52,439 bases of DNA, taken from positions 1-52,439 of the forward strand of contig JACPZB010000086.1 of the NCBI GenBank assembly GCA_016195725.1, in the 5' to 3' direction. Below the pieces are notes generated by a model, which was not told the DNA's origin, searched no databases, and saw only the letters and a list, made by a program, of their open reading frames with translations. This document shows, piece after piece, positions 7,814 to 52,439 of this stretch (positions within the stretch are counted from its first letter, which is position 1; each line of letters begins with the position of its first letter). The translations under genes were made by a program, and so were the position numbers. The stretch is from Deltaproteobacteria bacterium (GTDB lineage Bacteria > Desulfobacterota > GWC2-55-46 > UBA9637).

Positions 7814-8500
7814 TTGAAACAAAAGTCTCTATCTATAGTTCTTGTAAGCGGCGGGATGGATAGCCTTGTTACCGCTGCCATAGCCAATCTGGAAAATGAG
7901 GTGGCGTTTTTGCACCTGAATTACGGGCAGAGGACGGAGCAGAGGGAACTCAAGGCATTTAATGATATTGCGGATTTTTATGGTGTGAAGAAGAGACTTG
8001 TTGTTGATGTTAAGTACCTAAAAGAGATTGGCGGCTCTGCGTTGACGGATGAGCGTATTGAGGTTCCTCCCCACATCCCGCACCCCACACCCCACATCCC
8101 TATTACCTATGTCCCTTTTAGAAATGCTCACCTTCTTTCCATTGCGGTATCCTGGGCAGAGGTGTTAGGCGCAAAGAGGATTTATATCGGCGCAGTAGAA
8201 GAGGACAGCTCTGGCTATCCTGATTGTAGGGAAGTTTTTTATAAGGCATTTGAAAAGGCAATAGACGCAGGCACAAAGCCTGAGACAAAGATAGAGATAG
8301 TTACGCCTTTAATCCACATGAAAAAGTCTGCAATTGTTAAAAAAGGGGTTGAACTTGGGGCGCCTTTTCATTTAACATGGTCTTGTTATAAGAATATTGA
8401 CATTGCTTGTGGGGAGTGCGATTCGTGCAGGCTGCGATTAAAAGGATTTAAAGAGGCAGGGGGCGTTGATCCGATAAAGTATGAGAGACGAGCGTTATAA
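7814..8500 (+). CDS. queC: 7-cyano-7-deazaguanine synthase
   Basis: VLVSGGMDSLVTAAIA PP-loop, NYGQRTEQRE, zinc-binding CGECDSCRLRLKGF. Confidence 0.95.
   Translation: MKQKSLSIVLVSGGMDSLVTAAIANLENEVAFLHLNYGQRTEQRELKAFNDIADFYGVKKRLVVDVKYLKEIGGSALTDERIEVPPHIPHPTPHIPITYVPFRNAHLLSIAVSWAEVLGAKRIYIGAVEEDSSGYPDCREVFYKAFEKAIDAGTKPETKIEIVTPLIHMKKSAIVKKGVELGAPFHLTWSCYKNIDIACGECDSCRLRLKGFKEAGGVDPIKYERRAL
8069..8100. repeat. heptad array (single arm) in frame inside queC
   Basis: ccccaca-tcccgca-ccccaca-ccccaca-tccc; same word as the hisZ arm (reverse complement TGTGGGG). Confidence 0.85.
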
Positions 8501-12915: not shown

Positions 12916-12959
12916 TTGAGCTTTTCCATGTGAATTTTACCTTGAAAAGGGGGGAGATT

Positions 12960-15900
12960 ATGAAAAAGATAGCCCTTTCAATTAAAACCTTTATCTTTCT
13001 AATCCTTTTTATCCTGCCATGCGTTTCAACAGCGCAGGAAAAGCCTGAGATTTTTGTACAAACGGGGCATGCAGAAGAAGTTACCTCGGCAACCTTTTCC
13101 CCTGATGGGAGGTATGCATTATCTGGGAGCAATGACCATACTCTTAAGCTCTGGGAAGTTGCAACGGGAAAGGAAATAAGGACATTCACAGGGCATACAA
13201 GCACGGTTACCTCTGTCGCCTTTTCCCCTGACGGCAGATATGCATTGTCAGGGAGTTGGGATAATACCCTCAAACTCTGGGATGTATCAACGGGCAATGA
13301 GATAAGGACTTTTAAAGGGCATACAGACTGGGTTAAATCCGTCGCCTTTTCACCTGATGGCAGGTATGCACTTTCTGGAAGTGAAACATGGAACGGCTAT
13401 GTCACCATCAAACTCTGGGAGGTGACAACAGGAAAAGAAATAAAGACAAAAACAGTAAAATCAAATGAGTATGACCCTGTACTTTTTTCTCCTGACGGCA
13501 AATATATCTTGTTTAAATTGTATAATAATAGTGAGGGTGATAAGAGGTATTTATCGCTCTGGGATGTAACAACATTGGAAGAAATAAGGCGGTTCGAAGA
13601 TTCAAGTAATTACAGAAATCCCATCTTTTCTCCTGATGGCAAGTATGTCCTTTCAATTTATTTAAAAACTCTTGTTCTCTTGGATGTTGAGACGGGCAAG
13701 AAGATAAGGCAATTCACAGGGCATACAAAATGGGTTAGCTCTGTAGCCTTTTCCCCTGACGGCAGATATGCATTGTCAGGGAGTAGTGATGATAATACCC
13801 TCAAGCTCTGGGATATTGCAACAAGCGAGGAGGTAAGGACATTTAAAGGTCATCCAGATAGAGTTAGGTCTGTAGCCTTTTCCCCTGACGGGAGATTTGT
13901 GTTATCAGGAAGGTATGATAAAACCCTCAAACTCTGGGATATTGCAACAGGAAGGGAGATTCGCACTTTTGGAGGAGATATCTTTAGGGTCACTTCCATT
14001 GCCCTTTATCCGGATGGGCGCTATATCCTATCTGCCGATGAACACAAGATTAGCCTCTGGGATATAGCAACAGGAAGAAGGATTCAGGCATTCTTAGCGC
14101 ACAAGGAGGACATTAGTGCCATCGCCCTTTCGCCTGATGGGAAATATGCACTATCAGGTGTTGGGGCATATACATCAGCAAGCGTCGGAGATGAAGGGAG
14201 AGATTTTACATTGAAGTTGTGGGATATTTCCACTGGAAGAGAAATTAAAACTTTTTTAGGACATACCAAATATATTAACTCTGTTGCTTTTTCACCTGAT
14301 GGAAAATACGCCCTGTCTTCAAGCGGTGATAACACCTTAAGACTCTGGGAAGTCTCTACAGGGAGACAGATACAGGTCATCAAAGAACCGCAAGGGAGTT
14401 TTTTAGGTCAAGCCATCTTCTCTCATGATGGCAGGCAAATACTTGCCGGCCATTGTAAAATAGATCCGAAGCTTATCGGAGTGTGCAGCACCGAAACAGT
14501 TAAAGTATTTGATGCCTTTACGCTAAGGGAAATAAAAACTCTTTCTCCCATAGATGACAGGTCATTTAGTTCTGTTTTACATATAGCCCTTTCCCCTGAT
14601 GGAAGGTATGTTATTGACCGTTCTTCTGGCCTCCGGGAGGTCTCTACAGGAAGACTGGTGAGCCGATTAGAGAAAGAATTCTATTCTGGGGGGGTGGCTT
14701 TTTCTCCGGATGGCCGGTTTATTCTGACAGAAGGTGAAAATCACAATATAGAATTATTTGATGTTGCCTCAGAAAGTAGGATAAAAACATTCTCAGGACA
14801 TACAGGCAGTTCATATTCAACAACCTTTTCCCCTGACGGGAAGTATGTGTTCTCAGGAAGTTTTGACGGCACAATAAGAAAATGGGATATCTATTCAGGC
14901 AAAGAAATTGCCCAATTCATCAGTTTTACCGACGGCGAATGGATAGTTATTACACCTGAAGGTTACTATAATTCATCTACCAATGGCGACAAACATTTGA
15001 ATGTCCGCATCGGCAACAATGTTTACGGCATTGACCAGTATCGTTCTACATTCTACAAGCCGCAGATAGTTGAGGCGGCATTAAGACTTGGAGATACTCA
15101 AAAGGCTGTAAGCGATATTGTCGGCGAGCAGAAGGCGGCATTGCCCACAGTTGCGACAATCCAGAATATAGAGCCTCCGTTTATTGTCATAAAGTCCCCT
15201 GAAGATGGGAAAAAGATTGATTCAACAGATACTGAAATCTCCCTTTATGTTGAGGACAGGAATCAAACGATAAAAAAGGTGAAGGTGTATGTCAATGGGA
15301 GGCTTGTAACAGCAGAGGAAGGTAGAGGGGTTAAGGTGGTTGGCGTTATTCCTGAAGGCAAAAAGACGTTGGATTTAAAAATACCTGTTCATCTTGAGAC
15401 AGGAGAGAATCTTATTGAGGTAATGGCATTCAATGGTTTTTCAGAGGGTAGGAAATCAATCCGCATATATTCTGGAGATGAGAAGAAAGCGGCAAAGGGA
15501 GAGGTTATACTCCCAAACCTCTGGATACTCTCAATCGGCATAAACAAATATCAGGATAAAAACCTGACACCCCTTTCTTATGCAGTGGCAGACGCAGAGG
15601 GTATTGTTGAGGCGTTCAACAGCCAGAAGGGTAAACTATTCAGGGAGATAAAAAGCCTGATTATCAATGACAACAGCCCTATAAAGCCAACCCGTGACAA
15701 TATTACCGACAACCTTGATTATGTGAAAAAGGCAGGGGCTAATGATGTTGTGCTTTTATTCATTGCAGGGCATGGGATAAATGACGAAAGCGGTGAATTT
15801 TATTTCCTCCCCTCTGATGCGGTCATATCAGAGGACGGCTCTATAAAAAAGTCAAAGGCTATTTCATGGAGGGATATAAAGGCAATACTGGACATACCTG

Positions 15901-16262
15901 CAAAGAAACTGATATTTGCCGATACCTGCCATTCAGAAGGTGTGAGCGGAAAAAAGACAAGAGGGGTTGACAATGACCGTTTCGTAAAAGAGCTTCAGGA
16001 GGCGAATGCAGTTATATTCACATCAAGCAGGGGAAAAGAACTCTCACAGGAATATGATAAATGGAAACACGGCGCATTTACCTATGCTTTGATTGAGGGG
16101 ATAAAGGGCAAGGCTGATTTAATCAAGGATAATAAGATTTCTATGAAGGAACTGGACACCTATGTTTCAGAGACTGTTCCGCAGATAACAAACGGGGCAC
16201 AGCATCCGATTACAAATACACCTGACGGGTATGTGAATTTCCCTGTGGCAATGATGGAGTAA
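12960..16262 (+). CDS. secreted WD40-repeat protein with C-terminal caspase-like (peptidase C14) domain
   Basis: Signal peptide MKKIALSIKTFIFLILFILPCVSTAQ; repeated AFSPDGRYALSGSxDxTLKLWDV blades; caspase dyad context LLFIAGHGIND and LIFADTCHSEGVSG. ATG at 12960 preferred over 12930. Confidence 0.93.
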   Translation: MKKIALSIKTFIFLILFILPCVSTAQEKPEIFVQTGHAEEVTSATFSPDGRYALSGSNDHTLKLWEVATGKEIRTFTGHTSTVTSVAFSPDGRYALSGSWDNTLKLWDVSTGNEIRTFKGHTDWVKSVAFSPDGRYALSGSETWNGYVTIKLWEVTTGKEIKTKTVKSNEYDPVLFSPDGKYILFKLYNNSEGDKRYLSLWDVTTLEEIRRFEDSSNYRNPIFSPDGKYVLSIYLKTLVLLDVETGKKIRQFTGHTKWVSSVAFSPDGRYALSGSSDDNTLKLWDIATSEEVRTFKGHPDRVRSVAFSPDGRFVLSGRYDKTLKLWDIATGREIRTFGGDIFRVTSIALYPDGRYILSADEHKISLWDIATGRRIQAFLAHKEDISAIALSPDGKYALSGVGAYTSASVGDEGRDFTLKLWDISTGREIKTFLGHTKYINSVAFSPDGKYALSSSGDNTLRLWEVSTGRQIQVIKEPQGSFLGQAIFSHDGRQILAGHCKIDPKLIGVCSTETVKVFDAFTLREIKTLSPIDDRSFSSVLHIALSPDGRYVIDRSSGLREVSTGRLVSRLEKEFYSGGVAFSPDGRFILTEGENHNIELFDVASESRIKTFSGHTGSSYSTTFSPDGKYVFSGSFDGTIRKWDIYSGKEIAQFISFTDGEWIVITPEGYYNSSTNGDKHLNVRIGNNVYGIDQYRSTFYKPQIVEAALRLGDTQKAVSDIVGEQKAALPTVATIQNIEPPFIVIKSPEDGKKIDSTDTEISLYVEDRNQTIKKVKVYVNGRLVTAEEGRGVKVVGVIPEGKKTLDLKIPVHLETGENLIEVMAFNGFSEGRKSIRIYSGDEKKAAKGEVILPNLWILSIGINKYQDKNLTPLSYAVADAEGIVEAFNSQKGKLFREIKSLIINDNSPIKPTRDNITDNLDYVKKAGANDVVLLFIAGHGINDESGEFYFLPSDAVISEDGSIKKSKAISWRDIKAILDIPAKKLIFADTCHSEGVSGKKTRGVDNDRFVKELQEANAVIFTSSRGKELSQEYDKWKHGAFTYALIEGIKGKADLIKDNKISMKELDTYVSETVPQITNGAQHPITNTPDGYVNFPVAMME

Positions 16263-20935: not shown

Positions 20936-23900
20936 GTGGTTGTTTCTTCACCTGATAACACATTTCACAGGGCATTAGAGGGTATAAAATCTCTAAAGCG
21001 AGAGGAGAGGTCTGCCCTGACAGGCCTTTTGGGTTCATCCAAGGCCTTTTTTATTGCCTCCGTCTTTGAAAATATAAACAGAACAATTTTAGTAATAGCC
21101 TCTGCACAGGAAGAAGCAGAGAACTTTGCAAAAGATATAAATTTTTTCCTCAGAAAAGATATCGCCCTTTTCTATCCCTCATGGGAGGTTTTGCCATTTG
21201 AGGCACAGTCTCCCCATCCTGACATAATCGCTGCCAGAATAGATATTCTCTATAAAACCTCCCAGAAACACCCGCGTATAATTGTTGCAACACCTCCTGC
21301 CCTTATGCGGAGGGTAATTCCAAAGAACGTCTTGCTATCATCTGTGCAGATTTTTGAGGTTGGGAAGGAGGTAAACAGGGATGAAGTTTTGCAAAGGCTT
21401 TTAGAGATTGGCTACTCAAGGGCTGCTATGGTTGAGGAAAGAGGGGAGATGAGGATTGCCGGTGGGATACTGGATATCTTTCCCCCATCATATTCTGCTC
21501 CACTTAGAATTGAATTTTTCGGAAACGAGGTTGAGGCCATAAGAACCTTTGATATTGCAACCCAGAGGTCCAAGGAAATGGTCACAGAGGCTGTAATATT
21601 CCCTGCAAGGGAGATTAAATTTTCAAAAGATGCAAAAGAAATGGCCTCGGATAGGCTCAGGAAAAGGGCCGAGGAAATGGAACTTTCCAGGGATGTAAGA
21701 GAATCTATTGCAGATAGAATACGGGATGGCCTTATATTTTCTGGGATAGATTTTCTCTTGCCTCTTTTTTATCAAAGACTGGATAGATTTTTTGACTATC
21801 TGCCAGATGATTGCATTCCTTTTCTTGACAATATAGATGATATAAATCAAGTAGCCAATGAATTTGAAAACGAGATAATGGATGGGAAAACAAGGGTCGA
21901 ACAAAAGAGGCAGTTTTTTGTAGAACCAGAAAAGCTCTATATGTCCATAACTGAATTTAAGTCCGCGTTTGACAAAATGGGCATGGTTACAATTGAGGCA
22001 TTTTCCCACCACCATTTTCTCCCTCGCACCCCGCCTAGCAGGGACAAGGGGGGATGGATAGAGGAAGAGGGCAAAGGCATGTTTGAATTTTCTACAGAAT
22101 CCAATCTTGACATAAGGCAAGATATTTCAACCATAAAACATGTCCCTGCAGACTTTAATCAGGGAGAGGAAATCCTTAAACCCCTCGCAGACAGGATAAA
22201 GAACTGGCAAACTCTCGGCTGGGGCGTATTTATGGTCTGCCATACATCTGGTCAGGCAGAGAGATTAAAGGAGTTGCTGGATGGTTATAATTTGTTTCCA
22301 ACAGTAGTGAGCAGTGAGCAGCAAGCAGTAAGCAGTAAAAATATCCTGCGCCTAACACCTTTAACCTATAACCAATCACCTGCTTTTTCAATAATCATCG
22401 GTGATTTAAGCTCTGGTTTTCGTTTTCCATTTTTCAAACTTGCTTTTATTACAGAAGATGAGGTATTCGGGCAGAGGATTAAGAGGAGAGAGCCCCCTTC
22501 CAGTAAAGTAGCTGTATTCCTGACACAACTCCAGGACTTAAATGTCGGCGATTTTATTGTACATACCATGCACGGCATTGGACTTTATAAGGGGCTTAAG
22601 AGGCTTAAGATAGGGGATAGAGAAAATGATTTTCTTATTCTGGAATATCAGGGAGGGGACAAGTTATATCTGCCTGTTCAGAAATTAAATCTTGCAGGTA
22701 AATATCATGGCGTGGAAGGAAAAACTCCGGAAATAGATAAGCTCGGCTCAACAAGATGGGAAAAGGCAAAGAACAGGGTAAAAAAGGCTGTTGAGGAGAT
22801 GGCAAATGACCTGCTTAAGCTGTATGCACAAAGGAAGGTGGTTGAGGGTTTTTCTTTTTCCAGGGGAGAAAGGCTCTTCTCGGAGTTTGAGGCGTCTTTT
22901 GAATACGACGAGACCCCTGACCAGACCAATGCCATTGAGGATGTGCTCAAGGATATGGAGGAACCAAAGCCGATGGATAGGCTCATCTGCGGCGATGTTG
23001 GTTATGGCAAGACAGAGGTTGGCATGAGGGCTGCTTTCAAGGCTGTGCTGGACAATAAGCAAGCGGCGGTTCTTGTGCCAACCACTGTGCTTGCCCAGCA
23101 GCACTATCTTACCTTTAAAAACAGATTTGCCGCATATCCTGTAGTTATAGATATTTTAAGTCGTTTTAGAAGTCCTAAAGAACAGAAAGAGACCTTGAAA
23201 AAACTTGCCAGCGGAGAGGTGGATATAATCATCGGCACCCACAGGCTTTTGCAAAAGGATGTTGTATTTAAGGAATTGGGCCTGATTATTGTTGATGAGG
23301 AGCACAGATTCGGGGTGAGCCATAAAGAGAGGCTAAAGCAGATGCGAAAACAGGTAGATGTTTTGACTTTGACCGCAACACCCATTCCAAGAACGTTACA
23401 TATGTCTCTTGCAGGCATAAGGGACTTAAGCATAATAAATACGCCGCCTGAAGACAGGCTTGCCACAAAGACTGTTGTTGCAAGATTTGATGACGACCTG
23501 ATAAAAGATGCCATAAGAAGAGAACTATCCAGAGGCGGCCAGGTATTTTTTGTTCACAACAGGGTGCAAAGCATTGGAGCAATGGCAGATTATCTAAAAA
23601 GGATTGTCCCTGAGGCAAAAATTGGCATAGCCCACGGCCAGATGAAAGAAAAGGATTTGGAAAAGGTAATGACCGCTTTTGTAAACAAAGATTACGATAT
23701 GCTCATTTCCACCTCAATTATAGAATCAGGGCTTGATATACCATCAGCCAATACAATTTTGATAAATCGGGCAGACAGATTCGGCCTTGCAGAGATATAT
23801 CAACTGCGGGGAAGGGTGGGCAGAAGCAGCCACAGGGCGTATGCGTACCTTTTGACGCCGCCTGAATTAACATTAACACCGGATGCAAAAAAGCGGCTCA

Positions 23901-24571: not shown

Positions 24572-25795
<1,224 letters not shown>

Positions 25796-25804
25796 GAACA
25801 AGAA

Positions 25805-25872
25805 CAATTATGAATTACAAATTACGAATTACGAATTTACTGTTCTAATTCCTAATTCCTAATTCTTAATTC
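25805..25872. repeat. paired heptad arrays, tgt-yajC intergenic
   Basis: caattat-gaattac-aaattac-gaattac-gaattta and ctaattc-ctaattc-ctaattc-ttaattc. Confidence 0.9.
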
Positions 25873-25896
25873 TAATTAAAAAAAGGAGGTATAAAA

Positions 25897-26217
25897 GTGT
25901 TAAATCTTGTTTCAGTTGCATTCGCAGCAGATGAGGCAGCGCCAGCAGCAGGGTCTATGGGACAGTTCTTGAGTTTTGCCCCGTTAGTCATACTTTTTGT
26001 AATCTTTTATTTTCTCCTTATAAGACCTCAGCAAAAAAAGGCAAAGGAACATAGGGAGATGGTTGCCGAGCTTGAAAAAGGCAATATGGTTGTCACCTCA
26101 GGGGGCATCCATGGAACCATTACGGGGGTAGCAGAAGATACTGTTACCGTAGAGATTGCGGAGAATGTAAGGGTTAAGGTGGGTAAGGAATATGTAGTTT
26201 CTAAGAAAAAGAAATAG
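25897..26217 (+). CDS. yajC: preprotein translocase subunit YajC
   Basis: FAPLVILFVIFYFLLIRPQQKKAKEHREMV. Confidence 0.93.
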   Translation: MLNLVSVAFAADEAAPAAGSMGQFLSFAPLVILFVIFYFLLIRPQQKKAKEHREMVAELEKGNMVVTSGGIHGTITGVAEDTVTVEIAENVRVKVGKEYVVSKKKK

Positions 26218-26228
26218 ATGGCTAATAT

Positions 26229-26316
26229 CAAATGTCAAAGCTCAAAGCTCAAAAGTAAAAACATAAGGTTTGAGACTCAAGGTTACCTTTGATATTTAGA
26301 TTTTGACATTTGAACT
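26229..26316. repeat. paired heptad arrays, yajC-secD intergenic
   Basis: caaatgt-caaagct-caaagct-caaaagt (26229..26256) and ttgatat-ttagatt-ttgacat-ttgaact (26289..26316). Confidence 0.85.
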
Positions 26317-48152: not shown

Positions 48153-48230
48153 TCGCCTTGCCCCCTGATGGCCATCAAGGGGCAAGGCGAGCTATGCAAA
48201 CCCCCACACTAAAATCTTTGGTGTGGGGGT
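48153..48230. repeat. large palindrome plus CCCCCACAC/GTGTGGGGG hairpin upstream of rpsA
   Basis: tcgccttgccccctgatggccatcaaggggcaaggcga (48153..48190) and acccccacac...gtgtgggggt (48200..48230). Confidence 0.8.
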
Positions 48231-48499: not shown

Positions 48500-48503
48500 T
48501 TGT

Positions 48504-48596
48504 AAAATTGAAAATTGCAAAATAAAAAATGCAAAATTATTAGAAACGGTTTTAGAAATTTTACAATTTACAATCTTCAATCTGCATTTTTCAATT
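48504..48596. repeat. paired heptad arrays between tRNA-Glu and tRNA-Lys
   Basis: aaaattg-aaaattg-caaaata-aaaaatg-caaaatt and tacaatt-tacaatc-ttcaatc-tgcattt-ttcaatt. Confidence 0.88.
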
Positions 48597-48605
48597 TTAT
48601 TATAC

Positions 48606-48681
48606 TGGTGAGCCGCCCGGGATTCGAACCCGGGGCCCACGCCTTAAAAGGGCGTTGCTCTACCATCTGAGCTAGCGGCTC
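48606..48681 (-). tRNA. tRNA-Lys (TTT), CCA encoded
   Basis: GAGCCGCTAGCTCAGATGGTAGAGCAACGCCCTTTTAAGGCGTGGGCCCCGGGTTCGAATCCCGGGCGGCTCACCA, anticodon loop CTTTTAA. Confidence 0.96.
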
Positions 48682-48690
48682 GTTCTTTAT

Positions 48691-48767
48691 AAGGGGCATG
48701 GGTCATGGGTCAAGAAAAACAAAATGATTTTTATCCTTTCCTTGCCCCTTGCTGCTTGCCCCTTGTT
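48691..48767. repeat. paired heptad arrays between tRNA-Lys and purA
   Basis: ggggcatgggtcatgggtcaag ... ccttgccccttgctgcttgccccttg; shares 23 nt exactly (catgggtcatgggtcaagaaaaa) with the tgt insert. Confidence 0.88.
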
Positions 48768-51151
<2,384 letters not shown>

Positions 51152-51153
51152 CT

Positions 51154-52439
51154 TCACAGCTTTACCACCTTTGCAGATATTATGTGCGGCAGTTTTAAAA
51201 GTTTTGAAAGTAGCTCCGCCGGCAGCGGTGTGTCTATATTCCATACTGACACAGCCTCGCCGCCAATTGCCTGTCTGCCGAGATGCAGCCTTGCTATATT
51301 GATATTGCCTGTGCCGAGCAGAGTGCCCACATTGCCGATAACACCGGGCTTGTCATAATTGTGAAGCACAAGGAGGTATCCTTCGGGCACAGCATCCAGA
51401 AAAAATTTATCCATCCTTACTATCCTCGGTTCTTTCTTGCCGAAGAGGGCGCCTTCTATAAGATTTTCCGATTCTTTTGTCTTTACCTTGATTGTAATGC
51501 TGCTGGCAAAATCAATAGCCCTTGAACTTTTTATCTCCACTACCTTTATGCCGCGCTCCTTTGCCACAAACGGCGCATTCACAAAATTTACCTGCTGATC
51601 CATCAACTGATCAAGCAGCCCTTTTATCGCGGCAATGGTAACCGGCGCCACATCGTAAGAAACCACATCGCCGCTGTATTCTACGGCAACCTCTTCTATG
51701 CCGCCTTTGAGAACTTGCCCCTGAAAACTCCCCAGCTTTTCAGCAAGCGTGATATAAGGACTAAGGCTTGCAAGCAGTTCTGCAGGCACGGACGGGACAT
51801 TTACCGCGTTTCTAATCGTCCCGCGCACGAGATAATCCACGATCTGCTCTGCTATGGCAATGGCCACATTTTCCTGCGCCTCTGCAGTTGATGCGCCGAG
51901 ATGCGGCGTCAAGATTACCTCTTCCATTTGTAAAAGAGGATTATCAGGCAGTGCCGGCTCTTTTTCAAACACATCCATTGCCGCGCCCGATACAATACCG
52001 CTCTTTATGGCATCGCACAAATCCTTTTCATTTACTATTCCGCCTCTGGCGCAATTTATAATCTTTACGCCTTTTTTCATCTTTTTAAAGGCTTCTTTGC
52101 TTATTAGATTTTTTGTCTCATTGGTAAGCGGGACATGAATGGATATAAAATCGCTCTTCTTATACAATTCATCGAGAGATACTTGTTCAACCCCCATCCT
52201 GTTGGCAGCATCCTGCGAAAGATACGGGTCGTAGGCAATCACATTCATCTTGAGCCCCTGCGCCCTGTCCGCGACAACGCTTCCGATATTGCCCACGCCG
52301 AGGATGCCGAGGGTCTTGCCCGTCACCTCAGTGCCTTCAAATTTTTTCTTCTCCCATTCCCCTTTGCGCATCGAGGCCGTTGCCTGCGGAATCTTTCGCG
52401 CCAAGGCCATGAGCATGGAGACCGCATGTTCCGCAGTGG
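51154..52439 (-). CDS. serA: D-3-phosphoglycerate dehydrogenase, N-terminus outside window
   Basis: TAEHAVSMLMALARKIPQATASMRKGEWEKKKFEGTEVTGKTLGILGVGNIGSVVADRAQG; C-terminal ACT domain; frame open to window edge. Confidence 0.95.
   Translation of the reverse strand, partial: TAEHAVSMLMALARKIPQATASMRKGEWEKKKFEGTEVTGKTLGILGVGNIGSVVADRAQGLKMNVIAYDPYLSQDAANRMGVEQVSLDELYKKSDFISIHVPLTNETKNLISKEAFKKMKKGVKIINCARGGIVNEKDLCDAIKSGIVSGAAMDVFEKEPALPDNPLLQMEEVILTPHLGASTAEAQENVAIAIAEQIVDYLVRGTIRNAVNVPSVPAELLASLSPYITLAEKLGSFQGQVLKGGIEEVAVEYSGDVVSYDVAPVTIAAIKGLLDQLMDQQVNFVNAPFVAKERGIKVVEIKSSRAIDFASSITIKVKTKESENLIEGALFGKKEPRIVRMDKFFLDAVPEGYLLVLHNYDKPGVIGNVGTLLGTGNINIARLHLGRQAIGGEAVSVWNIDTPLPAELLSKLLKLPHIISAKVVKL

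Follow-up and report, generated by a model that had tools for sequence, protein, structure and literature searches.

Rickettsia palindromic elements are palindromic repeats found in frame in housekeeping genes, and they form families whose members are longer and have a fixed consensus. The heptanucleotide repeats of cyanobacteria carry a name of their own, STRR. Many bacteria have an excess of heptamer repeats, which have been little studied, and the lack of a detailed literature on them has been noted (PMC4692102). Three heptanucleotide repeats are reported for Calothrix, as cited in that paper (PMC4692102), and the GGGNATC repeats of Xanthomonas and Nostoc have been interpreted as G-quadruplexes (PMC4692102). 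In Beggiatoaceae and cyanobacteria, TAACTGA heptamers show 7-nt indels and are suspected to have spread horizontally, though no mechanism is evident (PMC4679880). Lastly, Geobacter metallireducens carries paired tandem 7/8-mers on opposite strands, between and within genes and in several unit classes; the part of the paper that treats them proposes regulator binding and gives no site-by-site comparison (PMC2700814).

The locus studied here lies in a metagenome-assembled genome of 2.07 Mb (115 contigs, 90.5% complete), of which 2.02 Mb (97.5%) were examined. The window is contig 100 of this assembly, a stretch of 52,439 nucleotides. By protein identity, the nearest named record is the MAG Deltaproteobacteria bacterium NC_groundwater_1018 (median 74%, nine proteins).

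An earlier note on the window had described an exact 23-mer common to an insert in tgt and to the spacer between tRNA-Lys and purA, one copy coding and one intergenic, both followed by ccttgcccc-type words. All of this is borne out. The 23-mer, CATGGGTCATGGGTCAAGAAAAA, occurs at two sites, 25170-25192 within the tgt ORF and 48697-48719 in the gap between tRNA-Lys and purA, far above chance given that base composition predicts about 6e-5 exact 23-mer pairs in 52 kb. The flanking bases differ (T/G before, A/C after), so that the match is not extendable. The two sites are also the only perfect matches in the window of the 18-mer CATGGGTCATGGGTCAAG, which with up to three mismatches has four matches against 0.05 expected. 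CTTGCCC words stand 3′ of both 23-mers, at 25198-25228 and 48740-48765. The note had named beforehand what would speak against it, namely a lack of further copies in the genome and in relatives. That check, carried out here, does not refute it. The genome holds six exact copies of CATGGGTCATGGGTCA and 70 with at most two mismatches (reversed control, 0), and among relatives three successive GGGTCAN units are found in 11 of the 11 examined genomes of the order (its own included) and in none of the 48 others of the class. The six exact CATGGGTCATGGGTCA loci share the same ordered 16-mer, preceded by AAGGGG in four of them, and their loops and flanks are dissimilar.

The first 23-mer belongs to the gene of tRNA guanosine(34) transglycosylase, tgt (24593-25795, forward strand; TIGR00430, 539 bits). 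The TIGR00430 match falls in two stretches, on either side of an in-frame insert at 25118-25234 that is apparent from the sequence, from a period of 7 reported by TRF at 25199-25228 and from RNA folding (-43.8 kcal/mol, z -1.7). The insert comprises a purine-rich arm of GGGTCAN/GGGTTAA heptads (~25123-25188), an A-rich loop (~25189-25198) and a pyrimidine-rich arm of CTTGCCC heptads (25199-25228); the 23-mer, on the forward strand, covers part of the purine arm and the start of the loop. The protein has about 33 extra residues, and the PDB alignment of Tgt breaks at residue 178 and restarts at 212, where PDB 10fb has a 5-residue loop. Directly downstream, in the tgt/yajC gap, an intercistronic hairpin of AATTACG/CTAATTC heptads (25796-25880, forward strand; RNA fold z -5.8) separates the tgt stop codon from the Shine-Dalgarno sequence of the next gene. 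A further intercistronic period-7 array with an inverted-repeat stem (26222-26262, no strand assigned) lies 3′ of the gene at 25897-26217, and mfd contains an in-frame period-7 array, TVVSSEQQAVSS (22303-22339, forward strand). Another in-frame array, encoding PHIPHPTPHIP, is located at 8069-8101 within the ORF 7814-8500. The large ORF 12930-16262 harbors a 126-bp tandem repeat (13093-13370; 2.2 copies, 78% matches), which is apparently a protein repeat and not a heptad array.

The second 23-mer, also read on the forward strand, has purA (adenylosuccinate synthase, 48768-50063, reverse strand; NF002223, 651 bits) as its upstream neighbour and tRNA-Lys (ttt) (48606-48681, reverse strand) as its downstream neighbour. 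It is part of a hairpin, recognised from the sequence and by RNA folding, which fills the gap (48685-48767, no strand assigned). On the forward strand this hairpin consists of a purine arm (~48691-48714), a loop (~48715-48738) and a pyrimidine arm (~48739-48765); the fold of the transcribed reverse strand reaches -29.4 kcal/mol (z -3.6), and none of 200 shuffles is as stable. An AT-rich period-7 hairpin occupies the adjoining tRNA-Lys/tRNA-Glu spacer (48500-48605, reverse strand; fold z -5.3). Rfam covariance models run against the window matched the two tRNAs only and no array or hairpin. A search of the surrounding 800 bp in a phage collection returned mainly tRNA genes and weak unannotated matches, and a plasmid collection gave no match for the element. 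Between rpsA and tRNA-Glu, a separate near-perfect palindrome, CGCCTTGCCCCCTGATGGCCATCAAGGGGCAAGGCG (48155-48190), has its pyrimidine arm first, the opposite of the heptad hairpins. The 5′ end of a minus-strand ORF at 50087-51244 contains a pair of short arrays, TGGGGTG x4.6 and another that resembles TCCTACC (51073-51148).

Across the 2.02 Mb, 295 clusters of period-7 repeats were counted. Exact arrays number 184 at period 7 against 1-26 at the other periods from 4 to 12. In a mismatch-tolerant scan, 240 regions were found at lag 7 and 16 at lag 8, the other lags from 3 to 20 giving at most 7 with the exception of the multiple 14; the same scan of a simulated genome produced none. The 7-nt units are arranged head to tail at dispersed sites, as in described heptanucleotide tandem repeats. 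Published cases typically, though not by strict definition, involve few units per genome, whereas at least 96 heptamers are used here (96 in 266 locus-units), GGGTCAN/GGGGCAN being the commonest and AACTGAT, of the TAACTGA heptamer class, among them. The commonest unit occurs 22 times. When units are seeded at random from the genome, none exceeds 6 occurrences and about 226 different ones result; since recurrence is higher and distinct units are fewer than under such seeding, the units are dispersed and not locally invented.

The two 23-mers are thus members of some 300 period-7 arrays in this genome and not copies of one fixed element. Dispersal, which the earlier note had argued for over independent simple-sequence drift, holds up, given the recurrence of the unit, the shared ordered stretch and the groups of arrays with a shared loop. 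The single common element that it had in mind does not: loops and flanks differ, units number at least 96, and other units occupy the same sites in relatives. No common ends of the 23-mer copies or of the array copies were found, only parts of arms and some loops being shared, and no target-site duplication was detected in empty/filled comparisons that are few and too diverged to define one. A phylogeny of the 23-mer copies alone would miss the actual process.

Many of the arrays are hairpins. A strong inverted repeat is present in 154 of the 295 clusters, against 18 of 295 random windows, and the common plan is a purine-rich heptad arm, an AT-rich loop and a pyrimidine-rich heptad arm. Of 120 intercistronic hairpins, 108 have a purine-rich 5′ arm and 10 a pyrimidine-rich one. 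We considered this rule as a sign of transcription polarity and rejected it: an inverted repeat reads alike on both strands, so the purine 5′ arm belongs to the element itself and is uninformative on the direction of transcription. Among the same 120 hairpins, 27 fall into nine groups of two to six members that can be aligned through the loop into both arms.

The arrays occur in preferred places. With gene calls from our own codon-model caller, 162 clusters are intergenic, 41 lie across gene ends and 92 are inside genes. Spacer-centred arrays comprise 147 between co-directional genes, 3 between divergent and 1 between convergent genes, where base counts predict 24.6 divergent (P 6e-8) and 16.6 convergent (P 1e-6); a cruder gene caller gives 114, 5 and 4, respectively. 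The hairpins start a median of 7 nt past the upstream stop codon and end a median of 22.5 nt before the next start. Intrinsic terminators, in which a hairpin and a U-tract close the transcript, would be expected between convergent genes; judged by placement only, the arrays do not resemble them, as they are almost absent there.

Inside genes, the arrays are stop-free in frame (e.g. GQGSRVKGQ, SEVRSQK, RNPQSAI, CPLPLAP), and the purine-rich strand is the sense strand in 67 of the 92. The genes concerned include tgt, prmC, tsaD, the cobalamin genes cbiH, cbiD and cbiC and an exopolyphosphatase. On one other contig (C87, locus L049, 3450-5981), cbiD and a neighbouring gene together hold five in-frame arrays within 2.5 kb, in which at least three units are represented. 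Arrays coding for hydrophobic residues lie near protein N-termini in 4 of 11 cases against 7 of 81 for the rest (P 0.02), a tendency that is only suggestive. Pyrimidine-sense arrays with hydrophobic stretches near N-termini (FCLLPTVYCLLSTVS, LLFTIHCSLFTV) were seen at L090:252-296, L115:7938-7973 and L127:2049-2088, and further ones at L139:12536-12566 and 14793-14830; such arrays are possibly tolerated in signal peptides.

Five orthologous sites were compared across the order: the tgt loop, the PrmC loop, and the purA/tRNA-Lys, tRNA-Lys/tRNA-Glu and tgt/yajC gaps. In the following, G000 is the genome of the window, G001 a congener, G002 a member of a different genus, and G012 and G015 are outgroups, from the same class, for the tgt loop. 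Among 38 in-order site-by-genome segments, which were cut by eye, 29 score best at lag 7, four at lag 8, four at lag 6 and one at lag 4; lag 7 is best in none of four outgroup loops. At the tgt loop, G000 has GGGTCA/CTTGCCC 7-mers, whereas 8-mers of the GAAACGGA type are found in G001, G002 and G004, and G010 apparently begins as such an array before its contig ends inside the repeat. Other units are present in G009 (GAGTTCA), G005 (GGGGCTG) and G006 (GTTCACA), and no repeat is found at this loop in G003, G012 and G015. As four genomes, G010 apparently among them, share GAAACGGA where G000 has GGGTCA, the G000 lineage has probably swapped its array; on the simplest reading of these sequences the GAAACGGA 8-mer would be ancestral and was replaced.

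The remaining sites show a similar mixture. At the PrmC loop, G000 and G006 have one hairpin in common, loop included, other units are found in the six other in-order genomes examined, and the outgroups have no array. In nine genomes the purA/tRNA-Lys gap is occupied by an array, and the units mostly differ from one genome to another. At the tRNA-Lys/tRNA-Glu gap, G000 and G002 are near-identical, G001 and G005 carry another version and G003 is empty; the likeness between G000 and G002 could reflect horizontal exchange or the sorting of old variants. In the tgt/yajC gap, which is also empty in G003, G000 and G001 differ in length by exactly one heptad, point changes aside. This is the only locus at which unit number was seen to vary between relatives in a 7-nt step.

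Reversed-pattern controls for GGGTCAN arrays gave at most two matches in the other genomes. Beyond the order, the GGGTCA/CCTTGMCCC hairpin pattern was also found in MAGs named Nitrospirae, Geobacteraceae, Omnitrophota, Nitrospinota and Deltaproteobacteria, in Nostoc and Calothrix contigs and in one MAG labelled Euryarchaeota. These outside loci are period-7-rich too, a property toward which the search pattern is biased. Two Nitrospirae MAGs have most of their intergenic arrays between co-directional genes; the numbers for other lineages are too small to judge.

How does this system compare with the described ones? Like Rickettsia palindromic elements, the arrays are inserted in frame in housekeeping genes, but they are tandem 7-nt units without a fixed consensus. 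The opposed tandem pairs within and between genes, forming hairpins here, recall the 7/8-mer pairs and the inter- and intragenic heptanucleotide family of Geobacter metallireducens (PMC2700814), and the GGGTCAN hairpin itself occurs in other Geobacteraceae genomes; unlike that case, the present one combines at least 96 units, five order-wide sites with unit replacement and a measured co-directional restriction. With TAACTGA repeats it shares heptamer direct repeats, a mostly intergenic position, stop codons when read in one of the two orientations, indels of 7 nt that distinguish strains, a patchy distribution (PMC4679880) and the unit class itself, as AACTGAT. That system differs in having one dominant unit, direct repeats (one indirect) and a location mostly beside start codons (PMC4679880), whereas our genome has many units and mostly intergenic hairpins. 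The cyanobacterial and Xanthomonas/Nostoc heptamers are likewise in genome-wide excess, favour aligned ORFs and are scarce between divergent ORFs (PMC4692102), and the hairpin pattern extends to Nostoc and Calothrix contigs, as noted above. Few units are described for them (PMC4692102), in contrast to the large number of units found here, the hairpins and the exchange of units at orthologous sites.

We favour, at about even chances, the reading that both 23-mers come from a self-spreading system of arrays with a 7-nt period, many of them hairpins, which extends through the genome, is driven by slippage and template switching and is filtered by selection. The data themselves establish dispersal, the period of 7, hairpin form and placement, the whole-unit length change at one locus and the unit replacement at several sites. 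Arms would lengthen or shorten one heptad at a time through slipped-strand replication. On stalling or breaking at a hairpin, a fork could switch template to another heptad array and give rise to a new or replacement array, so that array sequence would move from site to site with no need for a transposase. Selection would purge any insertion disrupting a promoter, a terminator or a reading frame, and the survivors would be those in intercistronic gaps and in stop-free, mostly hydrophilic protein loops. Two points count against this explanation: the scarcity between convergent genes is not obvious under neutral insertion, and slippage with template switching alone leaves the choice of period 7 unexplained.

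The main rival, which we rate as rather unlikely, sees the hairpins as intercistronic RNA structures with a function, selection keeping the structure and leaving the sequence free. That function could be in mRNA stability, in processing, in insulation against Rho or translational coupling, or in binding a global regulator. Its strongest point is the near absence from convergent gaps, and the co-directional excess, the position from shortly after a stop codon to shortly before the next start and the persistence of hairpins of altered sequence in the same gaps in nearly all genomes of the order are in keeping with it. For Geobacter metallireducens, opposite-strand 7/8-mer pairs have been called putative global regulator binding sites (PMC2700814). 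Here, since the units differ completely, no sequence-specific regulator fits all arrays. Furthermore, just 14 of the 92 intragenic clusters have hairpins, some sites are empty in G003, and tolerance of insertions in operon gaps accounts for much of the placement. A more speculative and, in our estimate, unlikely possibility is an activity that writes or rewrites 7-nt hairpins of near-arbitrary sequence into operon gaps, architecture and position being inherited and sequence replaced, in unrelated and largely subsurface lineages.

A dispersed non-autonomous transposon of MITE or REP type, moved by a transposase or a reverse transcriptase (RT), seems improbable. Loop- and arm-sharing groups exist and the genome encodes Y1 transposases and one RT, but the arrays have no fixed ends and many unrelated units follow one architecture. 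In searches for these RT and Y1 families, the RT had no match in G001, G002, G003, G005, G008 and G009, all of which bear arrays, and the 100% complete G008 lacks matches to both RT and Y1_Tnp yet has 16 GGGTCA array matches. Both enzymes were therefore rejected as necessary agents, and the Y1 transposase that would be expected in a genome with REP/RAYT repeats has no match in G008. Loss of mismatch repair was also rejected as a cause: MutS1, not found in the 90% complete G000, is present in most of the order's genomes. For SbcD, which is part of the nuclease that cuts hairpins, the majority of genomes in the order and in the class gave no match, with 13 of 14 control genomes matching; because most of the class lacks a match too, loss of SbcCD would be at most permissive for palindromes and is no explanation.

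Independent local expansion of simple sequence at each locus is very improbable. The whole-heptad difference at tgt/yajC demonstrates that slippage-type change happens, but inverted arms are not produced by slippage alone, ordered composites as well as loops are common to unrelated loci, and one unit recurs 22 times against at most 6 under random seeding; unit recurrence and loop sharing refute its pure form without dispersal. An assembly or binning artefact is scarcely credible despite the fragmentation into 115 contigs and the G010 tgt contig that ends inside the repeat, as arrays are internal to contigs and flanked by intact reading frames, orthologous sites are filled in separate genomes and the reversed pattern gives 0 matches in G000 and no more than two elsewhere.

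The array system is of the known heptamer-repeat kind, to which it adds a diversity of units, a rule of placement in operon gaps and the replacement of units at sites that stay the same. Prior descriptions of heptanucleotide repeats have been piecemeal (cyanobacteria, Geobacter, Xanthomonas, Beggiatoaceae) and without mechanism. A single order now supplies aligned sites, including some in housekeeping enzymes, at which the repeat is kept, exchanged for another unit, shorter by one unit or lost, and therefore both the period of 7 and the spreading agent become directly testable by strain comparison. In-frame peptides resembling GQGSRVKGQ, SEVRSQK or CPLPLAP in environmental proteins call for caution, as they are repeat inserts and not domains. 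What spreads here is a type of repeat that wanders and is constantly rewritten, not one fixed element.
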